Below are positions 18,717 through 29,389 of a stretch of DNA of 42,293 nucleotides, piece by piece. Origin of the DNA: Fibrobacter sp. (lineage in GTDB: Bacteria > Fibrobacterota > Fibrobacteria > Fibrobacterales > Fibrobacteraceae); NCBI GenBank assembly GCA_017530965.1, contig JAFXLS010000135.1, forward strand, positions 1-42,293, read 5' to 3'. The first letter of the stretch is position 1. Each line of letters begins with the position of its first letter. The notes beneath the pieces are model-generated. The model ran no database searches. It was given only the letters and a program-made list of their open reading frames with translations, and was not told where the DNA came from. The position numbers and the translations under genes were made by a program.

Positions 18717-19514
18717 ATGAAAACTCATACAGGTATTGGTGACTGGATTGCAGCCAACTATGAACTTGGGACGCCTTTTTTGCAGCAGGTGCCCAGGGAC
18801 TGTGCCGATTATTTGCTTTTGAATGCCCAGATTCGCGAATATGATTCGGGCGAAATCATTATTAATGGCGGGTCTATTGGCGATTCTTTCTGCGTGTTGC
18901 AGAGCGGTCGCGCTTTTATTTGCGGTGAACTTTTGGCTGACGGCCATTACAATACTCTCGCGACGTTGGAGGCGGGTACTTGTTTTGGCGAAATGTCCAT
19001 TATCTGTAATGAGCCCACTAGCAATACCGTTATTGCAGGTGAAGATGGTGCCACGGTGCTCCATATTCCCAGCGACGAGTTCGTGAAGTTCCTGGACAAG
19101 AACCCGAACATCATGGTGTACCTTTACAAGGTGGTGGCAGACCGCCTGCGCGCTAAGAACAAGGCTTTCGACGAATTCGAAAGACTTTCGCTCCTTGCTT
19201 CCGCAAAGGTTCTCCCCTTTATCGATTTTGCACAGACTATGGAAAAGAGCCGCGTTACGGGAACGGTCATGTTCGAATGTAACGGTGAAAAGGGCTTTAT
19301 CGCTTTCCAGGATGGCCGTATCTGCTGTGCTAAGTGTGGCAAACTGGCAGGCCCAGACGCATTGGAAAAAATGCTTTCTTGGGGTGACGAGACGCTGTTC
19401 AAGCTGGATACCCACTTGATGCCGGATATCGTGAACATCAACCAGATGTCCGATACCACCAGCCTCATTCTGGATGCGCTCAGAAATATTGATGAAAAAC
19501 AAAATGCCCGTTAA
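18717..19514 (+). CDS. Cyclic-nucleotide-binding-domain protein with DUF4388
   Basis: 265 residues, soluble. Residues about 20-150 form a cNMP-binding beta-roll (GSIGDSFCVLQSGRAFICGE; LEAGTCFGEMSIICNEPTSN). The phosphate-binding cassette normally reads GE...PRSA; here Arg is Thr101 (PTSN), so classical cAMP binding is doubtful. Residues about 175-255 (SRVTGTVMFECNGEKGFIAF onward) match DUF4388, a domain common in regulators of deltaproteobacteria and Fibrobacter. No DNA-binding domain is seen. It ends 39 bases before purM and may be cotranscribed with it. Confidence 0.75.
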   Translation: MKTHTGIGDWIAANYELGTPFLQQVPRDCADYLLLNAQIREYDSGEIIINGGSIGDSFCVLQSGRAFICGELLADGHYNTLATLEAGTCFGEMSIICNEPTSNTVIAGEDGATVLHIPSDEFVKFLDKNPNIMVYLYKVVADRLRAKNKAFDEFERLSLLASAKVLPFIDFAQTMEKSRVTGTVMFECNGEKGFIAFQDGRICCAKCGKLAGPDALEKMLSWGDETLFKLDTHLMPDIVNINQMSDTTSLILDALRNIDEKQNAR

Positions 19515-21811: not shown

Positions 21812-22681
21812 TTACTTTTCCAGAAATTCGAGCAGTTTGGGCATGAGCGTGGTTGCGTCTTTCACGCCCATGTCGTAAAGATCCACCAGTTTGGACTTGT
21901 CTTTTTCAAAGCACGAAATCTTGAATTGAGCGCTTGGGCGAATCATGAATGCGGAGCCTTGAGCGACGCGTTCTTCTAGCGTGCGACGGCATTGGTTATA
22001 GCGAATGTGGCGGGTCCTTGCCGCTTCAATAAACTTCGGGTATTTGCGATAGATAATCTTGAACAGGGGAATCATGGAATTCGGCTTCTTGACAAAGCCT
22101 TCGGGCTGCGTCACGATGACGACCTGCTTTTGATAGCCCATGTTCGCGAAAAACTGAAAGGGAATGCTGTCGCCGACGCCACCGTCCAGAAGTTTCATGC
22201 CGTCGATGTCTACGATATGGCTCAAGAGAGGGAGTGAAGCCGATGCACGAATCCTGTCCATGTCTTCGGGCTTGTCCAAATCGCGGGTGAGCAAATATTC
22301 GGGGCCGCCAGTTTCCAAGTTCGTAGCGACGGCATAGAATTTCGTTTCAACTGCATTTTCGCGGAACTTTTCAAAATCGAAGGGATCGACCACGCGCGGG
22401 ATTTGATTGTAGCAGTAATCCAGTGCGAAAAAATCACCTGTGCGAATCAGGTTGCCCCAACTCATGTAGCGCTTGCTTGCCGAATGAATGATGTCCAGGC
22501 GCTTGTTGCGCTCGCGCTGTTCCGACAGATAGCTGCAAAGGTGCGTCGCACCCGCCGAGGTTCCGGCACATGCGCCGAACTTGAGTCCGTTATCTAAAAA
22601 TACATCGAGTACGCCGGCCGAATACGCCCCGCGCATTCCGCCGCCTTCGACGGCAAGTGCAATGTCCTTGTACATTGCCAT
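21812..22681 (-). CDS. Patatin-like phospholipase (YjjU type)
   Basis: 289 residues, no signal peptide, so cytoplasmic. The Ser-Asp dyad is complete: oxyanion loop GGGMRG (13-18), nucleophile Ser42 in GTSAG, and Asp166 in LLDGG. The family hydrolyses acyl esters of lipids. The ATG at 22681 overlaps the Nudix stop (TGATG), giving translational coupling. Membership of an operon with sensor kinases and a Nudix hydrolase suggests a response linked to membrane or lipid state, which is inference. Confidence 0.9.
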   Translation of the reverse strand: MAMYKDIALAVEGGGMRGAYSAGVLDVFLDNGLKFGACAGTSAGATHLCSYLSEQRERNKRLDIIHSASKRYMSWGNLIRTGDFFALDYCYNQIPRVVDPFDFEKFRENAVETKFYAVATNLETGGPEYLLTRDLDKPEDMDRIRASASLPLLSHIVDIDGMKLLDGGVGDSIPFQFFANMGYQKQVVIVTQPEGFVKKPNSMIPLFKIIYRKYPKFIEAARTRHIRYNQCRRTLEERVAQGSAFMIRPSAQFKISCFEKDKSKLVDLYDMGVKDATTLMPKLLEFLEK

Positions 22682-23214
22682 CAGGCATTCTCCATGAGCC
22701 ACTGGAAATCTTCCGGATGCTCCACGAATTTTTCAGGATGTATCTTGTGTTTTGCGAAAAATTCTTCGCGGGTCATCCATACGAATCCGTCGACTTCGCC
22801 GGGTTGCGGCACCAGCGATTTTGCCTCTTCGTCGGTGAAGGTAACTTTATAGGTGTCGTAGTATTCGTTGTCGATGTAGGAGCCGCCGTTAAGTACGGTT
22901 GCGTACTTGACCTCGAATAAATATTCGAGGTCGCGCGGACTCTTGTGTATACCCAGTTCTTCGCGCAGTTCGCGCACGGCGGCGTTAATGCTGCTGTCGC
23001 CTGCTGAAATATGCCCTGCACAGCTCGTGTCCAAGAGACCGGGGTTGTTTTCCTTTACGCGGCTACGCAGCTGGAACAAAATTTTTCCTTCGGGATTGAA
23101 CGCCCATACATGAATGGTGCGGTGCCAAAGGCCTTCGGCGTGAACTTTGGTGCGTCCGCAAGCGTAGCCTGCAGGCGTTCCGTCGGCATTCAAGACGTCA
23201 ATTTGTTCTTCCAT
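22681..23214 (-). CDS. Nudix hydrolase (isopentenyl-PP isomerase-like subgroup)
   Basis: 177 residues. The Nudix box GHISAGDSSINAAVRELREE, then LGI, is complete except that the first Glu is Asp; REL.EELGI supplies the metal-binding glutamates. The opening (DVLNADGTPAGYACGRTKVH; HRTIHVWAFNPEGKILFQ) is that of the YfcD/IDI-like Nudix group. The substrate is unknown. The start overlaps the end of the second kinase gene by 17 bases and its ribosome site lies inside that gene, so expression is tied to the operon. Confidence 0.9.
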   Translation of the reverse strand: MEEQIDVLNADGTPAGYACGRTKVHAEGLWHRTIHVWAFNPEGKILFQLRSRVKENNPGLLDTSCAGHISAGDSSINAAVRELREELGIHKSPRDLEYLFEVKYATVLNGGSYIDNEYYDTYKVTFTDEEAKSLVPQPGEVDGFVWMTREEFFAKHKIHPEKFVEHPEDFQWLMENA

Positions 23215-25684
23215 GGGACATCCGTTCTTTTAGTTCATTGACGACCAGCCTGTATTCACGTATCAGGTCTTCGTGCCTGACTCGAATATAGTCGTAGTCG
23301 CCTTCGCTGCAAGCAAATTCCATCAACTTTGCGATGCTTGCAATGTTTATCGCACCGATAAACAGCGAGGCACTCTTTAGCGCCTGTACCGTTAGGCGGT
23401 AGCTTTCAAAGTCTTCTTCCTTGAACTGTTTGCTTAAGACAACGTCGAATTCCTTGTCGACATAGGTCATGATTTTTTTGCGATAGAGAGCTTCGTTTCT
23501 TTCGCAACAGTAAAGGCCTACCGAAGTGTCCAGGAGATCGTCCGGTAAATGTTCGGTAGTCTTTTTCGGTTCTACCTTTTTTACGGGCTTTTCTTCTGTT
23601 GTCTCAACGACGGTTTCTTCTTTTTTAGGTAATTCGTCGTATTGGTTTACCAGTTCTTTAGGCAGGTATTTTAATAGGATGGCGAACAGGGCATCTTCAT
23701 GTACGGGTTTTGTCAAGAAATCAGCGAAGCCCATGGTCTCGCAGATTGTTTTTGCCGAGGCGTTGTCGTCTGCCGTAAGCATTACGATGGGGGTCTGCTT
23801 GTTGGGATGATCGTCCAGTGTCTTCATGATGGTGAGAATGTTCAAACCATCGATAATCGGCATCGTATGATCCAAGAAGATAATGTCGTAGTGATTGCGC
23901 CTGAAGTTTTCGATGGCTTCCATGCCGTTCGATACAGGATCGAAGCGGGCGAAGGTCTCCTTCATGAGTCCGCTCATAACTCGCAAATTCATGGGCACAT
24001 CGTCAATGGCTAGGATGGATGCATTGGGCGCATAGAAATGGATGGACTTGTTTTCTGAGGCCTGAATAAACTCGTTGTAGCGCGTCTTGAAGTCGCCCAT
24101 CAATTCGTTCTTTATCACCTTTTGGGGAATGGTAATTTCGACCACCGGCAGGTCGTCCGCAATGAGACGGTTCTTGATTTCGCCACCCAGGGCGACCACA
24201 AGCATCTTCACCAGGGAAAGGGAGGGACCTGTCCAACTGACACCTGCATCGGGAATGTCGATGGTCAAATTGATTTTTTGGATAGTGACGGCTTCATTCT
24301 CGTTTTCAATCCAGCGGTAGCCAATTTGGATAATGTTGGCCCCGTTTACCACAAGGCGTTCGGCGTTAAACAAAATGTTGCTTATAATCTGCTGCAAGCG
24401 GGATTCGTCGCCTTCAAGATGTGTCGGAACCGAGGAATCCACCAGAAGTTCGAATTCCGCGGTTTTCTTGCGATGGCGTGCGGCATTCAGGCTGTCGCAA
24501 AGGACGCCAAACAGGTCGTATTCCTTGATGGTCACATCGAGACTGTTGGTGCGGATCTTGTTCATGTCCAAGATGTCGTTGGACAGCAAAAGCAACTGCT
24601 GGCCTGAAGTCCGCATGTCGGCGATATATTCCTTGAGCGAAGGATCTGTAGATTCCCTAAGCACGATGGCGCCCATATTCAGAACGTTCATTGCGGGTTC
24701 GCGAATGTCTTGACCGACCGATTCCATCATGCGTAAACGCTCCAATTCGTCACTAGCCAAATGGCTCTTTAAGCTGTATTCGCGGTGCTTGCGGGTCAAG
24801 AAGAACCGGATGCCAAGCCCGGTCAAGAATAAAAGCATCAGGAGCCCCACGACCCAGAATACCAGGAAGGACAAACGGTCCAGACCGTCGGAGACATCTT
24901 CGGCAGCGACCATTCCGGCAAGCATAAAGTCGTTATGCTTCAGTTTGGCCATATAGAAATAATAGGTATCGTTGCCGATGACGATGTTTCTTGAGGTTGC
25001 GAGACCGCGGTCTAGGTCTTGACGGAGCTTTATGTAGATTTTGTCGATATCGGTATTTTCCCAAATGGAATCTTTGTGCCAGTCACCGGTGTTGTTCTGG
25101 ATCAAAACCTTGCCGTCATTGTCAATAATCTGGGCGAAGCATTTTTTGTCAAAGCAGTCTACGTCGAAGAAATCGTTAATGGGAATCTTGTTGTATTGCA
25201 GGTACAATACAAAACGGACATTGAGGCGGTTGTAGACGGGGACGCACAGCATAATTCCCATTGTTTCGCTATAGCAAATAGATTGCTTGCCACGGAAGGA
25301 TTCCATGATGCAACGGTAATTTTCATCGGGCAGCATAAAGGTCGAATCGCCCGTATGCACGGTTCCGTCTAAAGAGATTAGCCCGTAACTGGTACTCTCG
25401 CCCTTCAAATCTGAAAGAGCTAGGAAATCTTCGATGCGAGAACCGTCCGCTTCAATCTTTCGCGAAATCATCGAAAGAGTGTTCAGACGCATGTGCATCT
25501 TTTCGTTTGCGAGGTCGGCAACCAATACGGCCTGCTGAGAGACTTGCTTGGAAACGTAAACGTTTAGCAGGGTATCGAGTTTTACGCGAAGCAGTACGCA
25601 AACAAGGCACAGTACGAATATGATGGCGGCGAGCCATACCACCATCTTGATGTTGATTTTTGTACCTCTAGGGTTTAATTCCAT
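23198..25684 (-). CDS. Hybrid histidine-kinase-like protein lacking both phospho-histidines
   Basis: 828 residues. Membrane helices at about 15-33 and 272-294 enclose a periplasmic sensor region of some 235 residues. The DHp motif that should contain His reads VGQDIREP, with Gln325 in its place. The ATPase region keeps the N-box (SNILFN) but the G1 box is reduced to DAG and the ATP lid and G2 box are gone. The receiver domain (about 556-675) is intact, with Asp605 in FLDHTMP and Lys659. A Lys/Glu-rich linker (about 685-712) leads to an HPt-like domain whose His is Gln767 (VQALKSAS). It is a paralogue of the kinase at 26756. It cannot act as an orthodox kinase; only the receiver could take phosphate. 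Confidence 0.85.
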   Translation of the reverse strand: MELNPRGTKINIKMVVWLAAIIFVLCLVCVLLRVKLDTLLNVYVSKQVSQQAVLVADLANEKMHMRLNTLSMISRKIEADGSRIEDFLALSDLKGESTSYGLISLDGTVHTGDSTFMLPDENYRCIMESFRGKQSICYSETMGIMLCVPVYNRLNVRFVLYLQYNKIPINDFFDVDCFDKKCFAQIIDNDGKVLIQNNTGDWHKDSIWENTDIDKIYIKLRQDLDRGLATSRNIVIGNDTYYFYMAKLKHNDFMLAGMVAAEDVSDGLDRLSFLVFWVVGLLMLLFLTGLGIRFFLTRKHREYSLKSHLASDELERLRMMESVGQDIREPAMNVLNMGAIVLRESTDPSLKEYIADMRTSGQQLLLLSNDILDMNKIRTNSLDVTIKEYDLFGVLCDSLNAARHRKKTAEFELLVDSSVPTHLEGDESRLQQIISNILFNAERLVVNGANIIQIGYRWIENENEAVTIQKINLTIDIPDAGVSWTGPSLSLVKMLVVALGGEIKNRLIADDLPVVEITIPQKVIKNELMGDFKTRYNEFIQASENKSIHFYAPNASILAIDDVPMNLRVMSGLMKETFARFDPVSNGMEAIENFRRNHYDIIFLDHTMPIIDGLNILTIMKTLDDHPNKQTPIVMLTADDNASAKTICETMGFADFLTKPVHEDALFAILLKYLPKELVNQYDELPKKEETVVETTEEKPVKKVEPKKTTEHLPDDLLDTSVGLYCCERNEALYRKKIMTYVDKEFDVVLSKQFKEEDFESYRLTVQALKSASLFIGAINIASIAKLMEFACSEGDYDYIRVRHEDLIREYRLVVNELKERMSHGRTN

Positions 25685-26759
25685 CGATTACCCCCTTGAC
25701 GTACCAATCAAATTGATTTAGCATGGCGTCGTCGGTCATGCTTTCTCCCTCGCCTACGCGAATATTGCCCTGATTGTCTTCAATTGGGCCATAGAACACG
25801 TCGAACTTTCCTTGAGTCAGTCTGTGTTTTTCGACTTCTACGACTTGGCGAATCGTGTCTTCTACATTCTTTGTCAAATCGGATAATTCCATGATGCCGC
25901 TTTCGAGGCCGAGCCAGTAGGATTTGCCTTCGAATTTGTCCTGCATGATTTCTCGAATCTTCGGGATGTAGAAATTCTCCCATCGCCAAACGGGGGCGGT
26001 CAAGAAATGTTCCGGGAATCTTCTGGCGTTATCCCTGTTGTAACCGATAATCCATATGCCTTTGTCGTCTGCGATCTCGTAGGGTGACAACGCGTCTACA
26101 TGGGTTGCCAGGACATCGATGTTATGCCTGTCCAATAGATCTCGGGTTGCGTCTGCGGCCATGGATTCGTCAGTCCAGGAACCAGTCCAGCTGATATATA
26201 CTTTTGCGTTGGGGTTGACTTTTTGTACGCCGAGGGCGAAGGCGTTGATACCGCGATTGACTTCCGAAATATTGAATCCTGCCACGTATCCGATTTCGTT
26301 TGTCTTTGTCTTGAATCCGGCAACGATGCCCGAAAGATAACGCAACTGGTACATGCGCCCAAAATAGGTGGATAGGTTTGTTGCCGTCTGGAGGCCTGTG
26401 GCATGCAGGAACTTGGCTTCGGGATGGTTTCTTGCAACAGCCAGTTCTTGTTCGCCGAAGCCGAAGGAATTTGCGATGATGATTTTGGCTCCGTTCTGAA
26501 TGGCCTGTTCCATAATGGTTTGTGCTGTTGAATCAATGGGCACGTTTTCATAATAGGCGACTTCAAGATTCAACAGTTTTTCTGTTTTTTTGATCGCTTC
26601 GTAATGGGTCTCGTTCCAGCTGTGGTCATTACGGAGTCCGGCCATAATCATGGCAACCCGGAATTTTGTTTCGTTATCCTGGGTTTCGGGGCCGAACATG
26701 AGTAACATTCCGATAATCATGGCGAGCGCAATGGTAGATGCAAGGATAGTCCATTTCAT
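25668..26759 (-). CDS. BMP-family (PnrA-like) ligand-binding protein
   Basis: 363 residues. An N-terminal hydrophobic segment (2-23) without a lipobox acts as signal peptide or membrane anchor. The rest is a basic-membrane-protein/PnrA-type domain: VAMIMAGLRNDHSWNETHYE, IIIANSFGFGEQELAVAR, IGYVAGFNISEVNRGINAFA and WIIGYNRDN. Related proteins bind nucleosides or other small ligands for ABC import. No permease or ATPase gene is adjacent. The gene lies between two hybrid-kinase-like genes, overlapping one by four bases (ATGA) and the other by 17, so a role in presenting ligand to the sensors is likely but inferred. Confidence 0.88.
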   Translation of the reverse strand: MKWTILASTIALAMIIGMLLMFGPETQDNETKFRVAMIMAGLRNDHSWNETHYEAIKKTEKLLNLEVAYYENVPIDSTAQTIMEQAIQNGAKIIIANSFGFGEQELAVARNHPEAKFLHATGLQTATNLSTYFGRMYQLRYLSGIVAGFKTKTNEIGYVAGFNISEVNRGINAFALGVQKVNPNAKVYISWTGSWTDESMAADATRDLLDRHNIDVLATHVDALSPYEIADDKGIWIIGYNRDNARRFPEHFLTAPVWRWENFYIPKIREIMQDKFEGKSYWLGLESGIMELSDLTKNVEDTIRQVVEVEKHRLTQGKFDVFYGPIEDNQGNIRVGEGESMTDDAMLNQFDWYVKGVIDGIKP

Positions 26760-29389
26760 CGTTTTTCAAGCTCCCTCTGGATGTTTTCAATCAGCTCGGC
26801 ATGCAAAGCCATTGCCAGATCGTGATTTTCGTGAATGACCTTCAGTCGTGAATCTAGGCTTGCGTTTTCTAGGTTGCGGAATTTTTCTGCCATGGATGTG
26901 GCGCCGATTGCTATCGAAGAATCGTATAGAACGTGCATGTAAAAGCGATAGTTGTCCCAATCGGAGTTCCTATAGCATGCGTCTACGTTTCTGCACAGCG
27001 GCGATGCGACGTATTCCTGCAACATTTCTACATAGATTTCTTCATCGTCGGCGCAGTAATTCAGGCCGGCTCTTATGTCTAGGAATTCTTCGAAATTCTT
27101 GAATCGGTCGTACGGAGTGGCGGCGGTTACCGGACGCAGTTCGATTTCATCGTCATCGAATGAGGTTTCAATCTGATTGTTGGGCACGCTGATTGCATTT
27201 GCCGAAGACATCACGGGTTCGCTCAGGTCTTCGGGAGTGAGTACCAGTTGTTTCGGCAGATACCATTTCAATGTGCGGCGCAGGTCCCGTTCCTTTAGGG
27301 GCTTTAACAGATAGTCGACGAAACCTTCGGCCAAGAAGGAATCCTTTGTCAGGGATTCGCCTTCTGATACCAAAACGATAACGGGCGTGTCCTTGTTGGG
27401 GGATTTGTCCATCATCTTCATTTTTCTAAAGACATCCACACCGTCCATGACAGGCATCATGTGGTCCAAGAATATCAAATCGTAGTGTCTCAGTTCTACC
27501 AGCTGCAAGCATTGGTGACCGCTAAGGGCTTCGTCAATTTTTACTTGGGAATTCTTTAGGAATCCGCGGAACATCCTGAGGTTCAGTTCTACGTCATCGA
27601 CAATCAGGATTCTTGCTTCGGGTGCCAGGAATACATCCGTTTTTTCTTTGTTCTTGCGGGATGCGTTCCTGTAGCGCATTGCGAAGTCGCCCATGGGTTC
27701 TGAATTTAACACCAGTTGCGGAATTTCGACCAGGAACGAAGACCCTTCGCCGTAGCGGCTGTTGATGGTCATGTGGCCACCGCATTTTGCCAGGAGTTCC
27801 TGCGTTAGGCTTAGGCCAAGGCCCATTCCCTCGACATCGTTGTTTTCTGTTGAACCGTCTTGGATATATTTTTTGAAAATGGAATTTCGCTCTTCTTTGC
27901 GAATACCGATTCCTGTATCCTTGACGGCGATTTTTAGCATAATATAATCGTCGGTCTGGAGTGTTCCAATGGGCGGCACGTTGTCGAATCCGACGAACAG
28001 CGATACGCCGCCGACTTCGGTAAACTTGATGGCGTTGGAAAGCAGGTTGTTGATAATCTGGATGATTCGGTTCTCGTCGCCCCACAAGCAAGAAGGAATG
28101 TCAGGATCGCAGTCGATGTGGAACGTCAGGCCCTTTGCTTTTGTCTTCGGCTCGTTTTCGTTGTAGCATTCCTGCAGAATGGTGAATACTTCGTATTCCA
28201 TGGATTCGATGCTTAAACGCCCCGATTCGATTTTGGTAACGTCTAGGACATCGTTTACCAGTGATAGGACACTCTGGCCTGCACTCTGGATATTGTTGGA
28301 ATATTCCTTCATGTTGTCATCGTGCAGGTCTTTTTGCACAATAGAATTCATGCCGAGAATGCCGTTGATTGCCGAACGAATTTCGCGGCTCATGCTTGTA
28401 AGGAAGGCCGTTTTGGAATGATTGGTGCGAACCAGCTGTACGTGTTTTACGAATGCGGCTGAAATCAAAAAGATAAACAGTACAAGTGCGAGGAATGCGA
28501 TAATCCCATCTCTCAGGACGGCCAGGTTCAGAGGCCTCCAAAGTAGCCGTTCTTCTACCAGGCGTACTACATACCATTCATTTTGTATGAGCGTTGAGAA
28601 TACGCGATAGTCCTTGCCTCTCAGATTAAAAACAAAGGGTTCGTTCCCTGCAAATGAAATATTGCGCGCAAGCTTTTCTTCGTCTGAACCCCAGAATTCT
28701 GCTGACAGATAGTTACGGCCGTTTTGGGTAATGTCGGTATGGGAAATGACGACACCCTTCTTGTCGATAATGACCAGCATATTTGACAGATCGCTCTTCT
28801 TGACATTAGCAAGCAAATCCTTCAAGTACAGGTCGATGGCAAGAACGCTTTTCTTATCCGAAAGGCGCAAACTGAGGGTCACCACCTGTTCGCCACTATG
28901 GGGATTTATGTGGGTCGGAATCAGGGCCGCCTTGTCCTTTTCCATAGGGGCATTCTGGTACCACGGGCGATTGGTGGGCGAATAACCTACGGCAGGAGTC
29001 CAGCGCCCGCCGCTAAGAAATTCATCGCGCAATAATCCGAACATATTGCATATGGCAATATCGTTCGAGTGCTTGTAATATTCTGCTTCGGAAACCAGCA
29101 ACGATTCCATCTGCTCCAGCTCGGCTCCGTGCGCTAAACTCTTTTCTGCTATGCGGGAGGTAACTCGCAGTATCGATTCGCCTCGCCCCAAGAAACCATT
29201 AATTGCTTCGGCATCTTTTTCGTTTGAAAGGGATTCCGCCAACAGTATTTCTTGTTTGACTGTTTCGACAAAGTCATTGAGCATATAAACACTCACTGCG
29301 GAAAGGCCTATGCCCACCACAATAAGGATTGCTCCGTAAAAAGCCCTTAAGCGATTTTCGCTTTCTATAGTCTTGAAGAACACAATCAA
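26756..29389 (-). CDS. Cache-domain hybrid kinase-like protein with Arg in place of the DHp His
   Basis: 877 residues. Membrane helices at about 15-36 and 293-315 flank a Cache-type periplasmic sensor (NRPWYQ at 140-145). The DHp motif reads SMSREIRSAINGILG; Arg335 (CGC, 28385-28387) replaces the phospho-accepting His, and the usual Pro is Ala. The ATPase domain looks complete: N-box INNLLSNAIKF, DTGIGI (491-496), GMGLGL (521-526). The receiver (594-712) has Asp642 and Lys696. The HPt-like domain keeps His819 (MHVLYDSS) but lacks the usual LKG. The start may be TTG 29389 or GTG 29383; TATATTTTG overlaps it. This is the first gene of the operon. Confidence 0.85.
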   Translation of the reverse strand: MIVFFKTIESENRLRAFYGAILIVVGIGLSAVSVYMLNDFVETVKQEILLAESLSNEKDAEAINGFLGRGESILRVTSRIAEKSLAHGAELEQMESLLVSEAEYYKHSNDIAICNMFGLLRDEFLSGGRWTPAVGYSPTNRPWYQNAPMEKDKAALIPTHINPHSGEQVVTLSLRLSDKKSVLAIDLYLKDLLANVKKSDLSNMLVIIDKKGVVISHTDITQNGRNYLSAEFWGSDEEKLARNISFAGNEPFVFNLRGKDYRVFSTLIQNEWYVVRLVEERLLWRPLNLAVLRDGIIAFLALVLFIFLISAAFVKHVQLVRTNHSKTAFLTSMSREIRSAINGILGMNSIVQKDLHDDNMKEYSNNIQSAGQSVLSLVNDVLDVTKIESGRLSIESMEYEVFTILQECYNENEPKTKAKGLTFHIDCDPDIPSCLWGDENRIIQIINNLLSNAIKFTEVGGVSLFVGFDNVPPIGTLQTDDYIMLKIAVKDTGIGIRKEERNSIFKKYIQDGSTENNDVEGMGLGLSLTQELLAKCGGHMTINSRYGEGSSFLVEIPQLVLNSEPMGDFAMRYRNASRKNKEKTDVFLAPEARILIVDDVELNLRMFRGFLKNSQVKIDEALSGHQCLQLVELRHYDLIFLDHMMPVMDGVDVFRKMKMMDKSPNKDTPVIVLVSEGESLTKDSFLAEGFVDYLLKPLKERDLRRTLKWYLPKQLVLTPEDLSEPVMSSANAISVPNNQIETSFDDDEIELRPVTAATPYDRFKNFEEFLDIRAGLNYCADDEEIYVEMLQEYVASPLCRNVDACYRNSDWDNYRFYMHVLYDSSIAIGATSMAEKFRNLENASLDSRLKVIHENHDLAMALHAELIENIQRELEKR

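Follow-up and report, generated by a model that had tools for sequence, protein, structure and literature searches.

Why should a bacterium maintain two adjacent hybrid histidine kinases, both devoid of the phosphoacceptor histidine, on either side of a gene for a ligand-binding protein? Such an arrangement, here denoted locus A, lies in the window, that is, the entire 42,293-nucleotide stretch of Fibrobacter sp. DNA that was analysed. Its features and the flanking genes are as follows:

26756..29389, minus strand: HK1 (kinase1), with a TTG start; dCache-type sensor, HisKA DHp, HATPase_c, receiver, and HPt
28385..28387, minus strand: Arg335 codon (CGC, codon check) at the HK1 DHp phosphoacceptor site
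27464..27466, minus strand: HK1 receiver Asp642; Asp in 16/16 dead (His-less) HK1
26933..26935, minus strand: HK1 HPt His819 (CAC); His in 15/16 dead HK1, with the +3 Lys mostly lost
25668..26759, minus strand: BMP/PnrA-type binding protein; N-terminal signal anchor, no lipobox, AtzT-like purine pocket
23198..25684, minus strand: HK2 (kinase2); dCache-like sensor (model only), DHp, collapsed ATP-binding domain, receiver, and HPt
24710..24712, minus strand: Gln325 codon (CAA, codon check) at the HK2 DHp site
24095..24538, minus strand: HK2 remnant ATP-binding domain, residues 383-530; core present, G1/lid/G2 missing, dN/dS 0.039
23870..23872, minus strand: HK2 receiver Asp605; Asp in 17/17 dead HK2
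23384..23386, minus strand: Gln767 codon (CAG) at the HK2 HPt site; Gln or Arg in 17/17 dead HK2
22681..23214, minus strand: NUDIX hydrolase, a genus-wide gene
21812..22702, minus strand: patatin-like protein, flanking gene

Consecutive genes overlap (BMP/HK1 by 4 nt, BMP/HK2 by 17 nt, HK2/NUDIX by 17 nt, and NUDIX/patatin by 22 nt), and the overlaps joining HK1, BMP, HK2, and NUDIX suggest a translationally coupled single operon. The NUDIX gene is probably merely co-transcribed because it is present throughout the genus, including genomes without HK1-BMP-HK2; neither this gene nor the patatin-like one is likely to be a functional part of the locus, both being found also at sites that lack it. 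Elsewhere in the window (18717-19514), a cyclic-nucleotide-binding domain is fused to DUF4388.

The first step is to establish what the two kinases have lost. The codons agree exactly with the initial annotation: the DHp phosphoacceptor His of an active HisKA kinase is replaced by Arg335 in HK1 and by Gln325 in HK2, and Gln767 occupies the HPt site of HK2. From the DHp onward, HK1 and HK2 align over 531 residues with 29% identity and hence are paralogous over this region, as had been supposed. Pfam detects HisKA, HATPase_c, and the receiver in HK1; in HK2, the receiver alone passes the cut-off, HisKA is sub-threshold, and HATPase_c was not detected. The N, G1, and G2 boxes are present in HK1 and missing in HK2, and the AlphaFold2 model of HK2 contains a folded CA core without G1, lid, and G2, in keeping with the collapsed ATP-binding domain described at the outset. 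Both receivers keep their Asp and Lys (Asp642/Lys696 in HK1 and Asp605/Lys659 in HK2, by codon check) and, by motif, are phosphorylatable. The full ATPase domain and the HPt His819 attributed to HK1 are present as well, but the HPt motif, HVLYDSS against the canonical HALKSTS, carries Tyr for Lys at +3 and Asp for Ser/Gly at +4, and because of these altered residues, the site may be non-functional despite the kept His. Judging from their sequences, neither HK1 nor HK2 is able to autophosphorylate by the known mechanism, and with the fold kept, the catalytic residues lost, and the sequence under selection, both have the hallmarks of histidine pseudokinases. The single-chain AlphaFold2 models (pTM 0.36-0.41) include dCache-like sensors in both proteins. 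Structures of RetS and GacS are among the best fold matches for HK1 and HK2 alike, so the match between HK2 and RetS is unspecific and the case for RetS as a specific structural counterpart of HK2 is weakened.

The history of these losses is laid out at a single chromosomal site, between a beta-lactamase-like gene upstream and the NUDIX gene downstream, which we surveyed in 80 genomes of the genus (the window genome is G000); a BMP gene is present in 22 of the 80. HK1-BMP-HK2 with both DHp histidines lost occupies this site in 12 genomes from 12 Fibrobacter species (G000, G003, G005, G010, G020, G030, G035, G061, G079, G080, G102, and G103), so that the three-gene order, which the initial annotation had proposed to seek in other genomes, is conserved; the histidine is substituted by Arg, Ser, or Asn in HK1 and by Gln, Lys, or Thr in HK2. 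The recurrence of the pattern in 12 species rules out assembly or strain error as the source of the losses. In G036, G011, and G066, the same site holds regulator-HKN-HK1-BMP1-BMP2-HK2 with all histidines present, the regulator combining two receivers with an HD-GYP-type domain. Orthologs with normal histidines, which had been taken in advance as a sign of strain-specific decay or error, thus do exist, but strain-specific decay is not borne out, the losses defining a clade. In G009, G075, and G100, HK1 is His-less, whereas the adjacent HK2 still bears the His. In five others (G072, G024, G025, G076, and G077), the site contains HK1-HK2 without a BMP gene there, and HK2 consists of ~570 residues, with no sensor and no DHp His; HK1 of the five BMP-less sites (L081-L084 and L091) keeps the DHp His in 4/5 and has eroded ATP-binding motifs. 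G024, G025, G076, and G077 retain these partly dead pairs without BMP or HD-GYP regulator. In many genomes of the genus, the site holds just 60-100 bp. The HD-GYP response regulator and the third kinase (HKN) of the fuller operon have been lost from locus A, and neither the HD-GYP regulator nor the live kinase of the intact module is found at locus A of the window. In G072, a putative GGDEF (diguanylate cyclase) protein, identified by sequence, is encoded immediately after the NUDIX gene (L084, 67-1257).

What remains in the dead copies is highly regular. In motif tables covering 24 HK1 and 25 HK2, the His-less copies keep the receiver Asp (33/33), the first receiver acid (33/33), and the receiver Lys (31/33), and the HPt His persists in 15/16 HK1 and 0/17 HK2. 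All 13 clade-A HK1 retain the N, G1, and G2 boxes, Glu+1, and Thr/Ser+4 around a DHp site that is Arg, Ser, Asn, or Thr; half of the dead HK1 (8/16) carry Ser at +4 in place of Thr/Asn, and the conserved receiver Thr, absent from the window HK1, is gone in 12/16.

Selection on the domains was estimated from three close genome pairs by the Nei-Gojobori method, and the values are approximate. For DHp, CA, receiver, and HPt, respectively, dN/dS is 0.008, 0.041, 0.047, and 0.022 in HK1; 0.052, 0.039, 0.063, and 0.052 in HK2; and 0.008, 0.090, 0.066, and 0.108 in HKB, a live paralog. Across these genome pairs, the dead domains range over 0.008-0.063 and their counterparts in live paralogs over 0.008-0.108, and such constraint, similar to that of live domains, implies that the dead domains have a function. 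Whole-gene dN/dS is 0.03-0.11, and the frames are intact in 12 species. All the dead domains are under strong purifying selection, which contradicts the decay envisaged in the initial annotation and rules out pseudogene decay.

The recent tandem duplication that had been invoked for HK1 and HK2 is likewise ruled out by the tree, in which HK2 clusters with HKB, the kinase of locus B, apart from HK1. In rooted trees (quick trees, with some long branches), the His-less state calls for roughly three changes among HK1 sequences and two among HK2 sequences; in the BMP-bearing lineage, the HK1 His was lost first and the HK2 His afterwards, and the DHp His was also lost separately in a BMP-less lineage. 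In the sister genus (G132), the order regulator-BMP1-BMP2-live kinase lies next to the same flanking gene. Outside the genus, a His-bearing hybrid kinase adjoins the BMPs, often together with an HD-GYP regulator, at 30 signalling loci, and 39 other BMP loci, mostly of lower identity, contain ABC transporter genes. Given the live orthologs at the same site, the sister genus, and the 30 gut-Firmicute loci, the dead forms descend from a live ancestor. The BMPs of locus A form one clade and those of locus B another, both nested within gut-Firmicute BMPs, a placement that suggests acquisition from that group. Read across sister species, the site with its live, half-dead, and dead versions amounts to a stepwise record of the passage from a phosphorelay to a non-catalytic receptor.

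The binding protein matches the Pfam Bmp profile (PF02608) with an E-value of 4.7e-51 and 174 bits (cut-off 24.1), and the guanine-site residues of AtzT map onto its W48, S98, F99, E166, W195, H220, and D222, the His and Asp of the pocket being found also in Brucella 3s99. AtzT (6pi5) and Brucella Bmp (3s99), its best PDB sequence matches, share pocket residues with the window BMP but, unlike it, are ABC-transporter-type binding proteins. The ligand of AtzT is guanine (PMC6834077), and the pocket suggests that the ligand of the window BMP is probably purine-like. A BPD_transp_2 permease was not found in six BMP-bearing genomes (G000, 83% complete; G035, 81%; G003, G010, G020, and G030, 96-100%); such permeases are present in G005, G036, and G009, but off the contigs that carry the BMP genes. 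In the BMP tree, the window protein belongs to a signalling clade whose members adjoin kinases; lipobox-like motifs occur in 0/34 signalling BMPs and 0/33 Fibrobacter BMP1, as against 13/24 transporter BMPs. On the permease search of these six genomes and the phylogeny, participation in ABC transport is rejected, and the earlier proposal is upheld that the BMP, by all sequence indications, serves as a dedicated receptor rather than as part of a transporter.

An intact second copy, locus B, is located on a separate contig of the window genome (G000:C114 = L049, 1311-9310) and consists of an HD-GYP regulator, HKN, BMP1, BMP2, and HKB, with every DHp His present. HD-GYP domains are c-di-GMP phosphodiesterases. 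Locus B is found in 11/12 double-dead genomes and in 0/7 genomes with a His-bearing HK2 at locus A (p = 1.6e-4 ignoring phylogeny, which overstates the association because probably few events are involved; it may come down to one event in one clade). The HD-GYP regulator is present in 19/22 BMP genomes versus 0/58 others (Fisher 1.3e-15), the exceptions being G009, G079, and G100. G079, rated 100% complete in 20 contigs, carries the double-dead pair, and neither locus B nor an HD-GYP regulator of this family was found in it; locus B is therefore not strictly needed for retention, and strict dependence of the dead pair on it is weakened. Besides those of locus B, no close live kinases were found in G000. 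The first of the two receivers of the HD-GYP regulator at locus B is gone in the eight species nearest to the window (L044, L045, L048, L049, L050, L067, L069, and L071), whereas G020, G035, and G061 still have both.

We consider it highly likely that locus A is a maintained receptor that does not autophosphorylate. As to ligand, physical contact, direction of phosphotransfer, partner, and c-di-GMP output, we infer the following scheme. In the periplasm, the membrane-anchored BMP would bind a purine-like ligand and signal via the sensor domains of HK1 and HK2. Self-phosphorylation would be impossible, HK1 having ATP-binding motifs without a phosphoacceptor His and HK2 lacking both. Instead, HK1 and HK2 would contact live kinases of their own family and take or exchange phosphoryl groups via the receiver Asps, and HK1, which retains Glu+1, Thr/Ser+4, and the ATP site, may dephosphorylate partner receivers. 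In G000, the likely partner is locus B, whose live kinases, restrained by HK1/HK2 or donating phosphoryl groups to them, would set c-di-GMP together with the HD-GYP response regulator. That locus A is a ligand-gated accessory receptor acting on locus B in a RetS-like manner has, in our judgment, an about even chance. Weighing against this scheme are G079, the partly dead pairs of G024, G025, G076, and G077 that lack BMP and regulator, the Ser at +4 in half of the dead HK1, and the receiver Thr missing from most of them. Three activities are described for RetS: uptake of phosphate by its receiver, dephosphorylation of GacS~P, and inhibition of GacS (PMC5992135); by analogy, HK1 would possess the parts for all three, and HK2 would be equipped for phosphate uptake and inhibition only. 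A His-to-Ala mutant of CrdS has most of its phosphatase activity left, with a regulator phosphate half-life of 2.6 min versus 53.5 min without the kinase, and a Thr/Asn residue is essential for this phosphatase (PMC3510030). Conceivable, albeit doubtful, is a narrower reading in which the two dead hybrid kinases form a purine-sensing phosphate acceptor or sink, with receivers charged or discharged only by the intact second copy, so that the switch from phosphorelay to non-catalytic relay would have taken place on two or more occasions at the same chromosomal site.

The best surviving alternative, although an unlikely one, leaves locus B uninvolved: the receivers, possibly together with the HPt of HK1, would be phosphorelay steps supplied by acetyl phosphate or by some unrelated kinase, making HK1 and HK2 ligand-controlled relay stations. 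The invariant receiver Asp, the near-universal HPt His of HK1, and the pair without locus B in G079 fit this reading, but the HK1 HPt motif is altered, the HPt His is gone from every dead HK2, and the operon has been left without a dedicated regulator. Improbable, too, is a trans-kinase role, with HK1 and a live kinase forming a heterodimer in which the ATP-binding domain of HK1 phosphorylates its partner's DHp His and the complex activates rather than restrains; the three boxes and the kinase-specific Glu+1, kept in 13/13 clade-A HK1, speak for it, but the Pro following the +4 residue is lost and the adjoining HK2 is dead. We give equally little credence to a purely allosteric complex in which ligand and ATP binding alter shape with phosphate uninvolved: two dead kinases, the retained ATP site of HK1, and the conservation of the dead domains are compatible with it, whereas the receiver Asp has been strictly kept through at least two separate losses of the DHp His. 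That HK1-BMP-HK2 is a decaying remnant of a once active system seems very improbable in the face of the intact frames, low whole-gene dN/dS, and live-like constraint on dead domains, notwithstanding the loss of the regulator, third kinase, and second BMP and the greater erosion in BMP-less genomes. Hardly credible is that the BMP serves an ABC transporter encoded elsewhere, with the kinases incidental: the Bmp family includes transporter binding proteins, and lower-identity BMPs lie in ABC operons, but no BPD_transp_2 permease was found in the six genomes listed above, including the 83% complete G000, and the signal anchor and signalling-clade placement contradict such a role.

As a receptor that does not autophosphorylate, locus A most closely recalls the RetS/GacS network of Pseudomonas, where a hybrid kinase of the broad GacS/BarA family, without autophosphorylation and with an intact receiver Asp, acts on a live paralog. 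However, RetS keeps the DHp His and has lost the ATP site, whereas HK1 is the reverse and HK2 has lost both; locus A unites two dead kinases and a binding protein in one operon; and in place of the features of RetS orthologs (HExxT kept, degenerate HATPase, two receivers), HK1 and HK2 have one receiver plus HPt, with the His lost. RcsD, DivL, and RocA, like HK1 and HK2, are kinase-like membrane proteins without a working phosphoacceptor, and RcsD retains a C-terminal HPt and is paired with a live kinase (PMC13317618). Unlike locus A, these are single pseudokinases beside a live kinase, with no binding protein and no hybrid architecture with a conserved receiver. In LuxP-LuxQ and TorT-TorS, as proposed for locus A, a hybrid kinase relays the signal of a type I binding protein in the periplasm, but the kinases are active and the binding proteins are not known to belong to the BMP family. 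Histidine pseudokinases occurring singly are already known, but the open-access papers searched contained no report of two dead hybrid kinases paired with a BMP receptor and represented at a single site by live, half-dead, and dead forms. For a hybrid kinase that no longer phosphorylates itself, the locus offers a way to test whether the receiver Asp, the HPt, or the ATP site still matters.

The BMP1-BMP2-hybrid kinase-HD-GYP modules of Lachnospiraceae, Oscillospiraceae, and Selenomonas share the BMP clade and gene neighbors with Fibrobacter but differ from locus A in that the DHp His is present at all 30 loci where a kinase adjoins the BMPs. The open-access papers searched contained no description of these modules, and this apparently undescribed gut-bacterial module points to BMPs, usually deemed transporter parts, as receptors controlling c-di-GMP enzymes. 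Such modules are widespread in the gut members of these groups (L110-L144), the apparent transfer source of the Fibrobacter loci.
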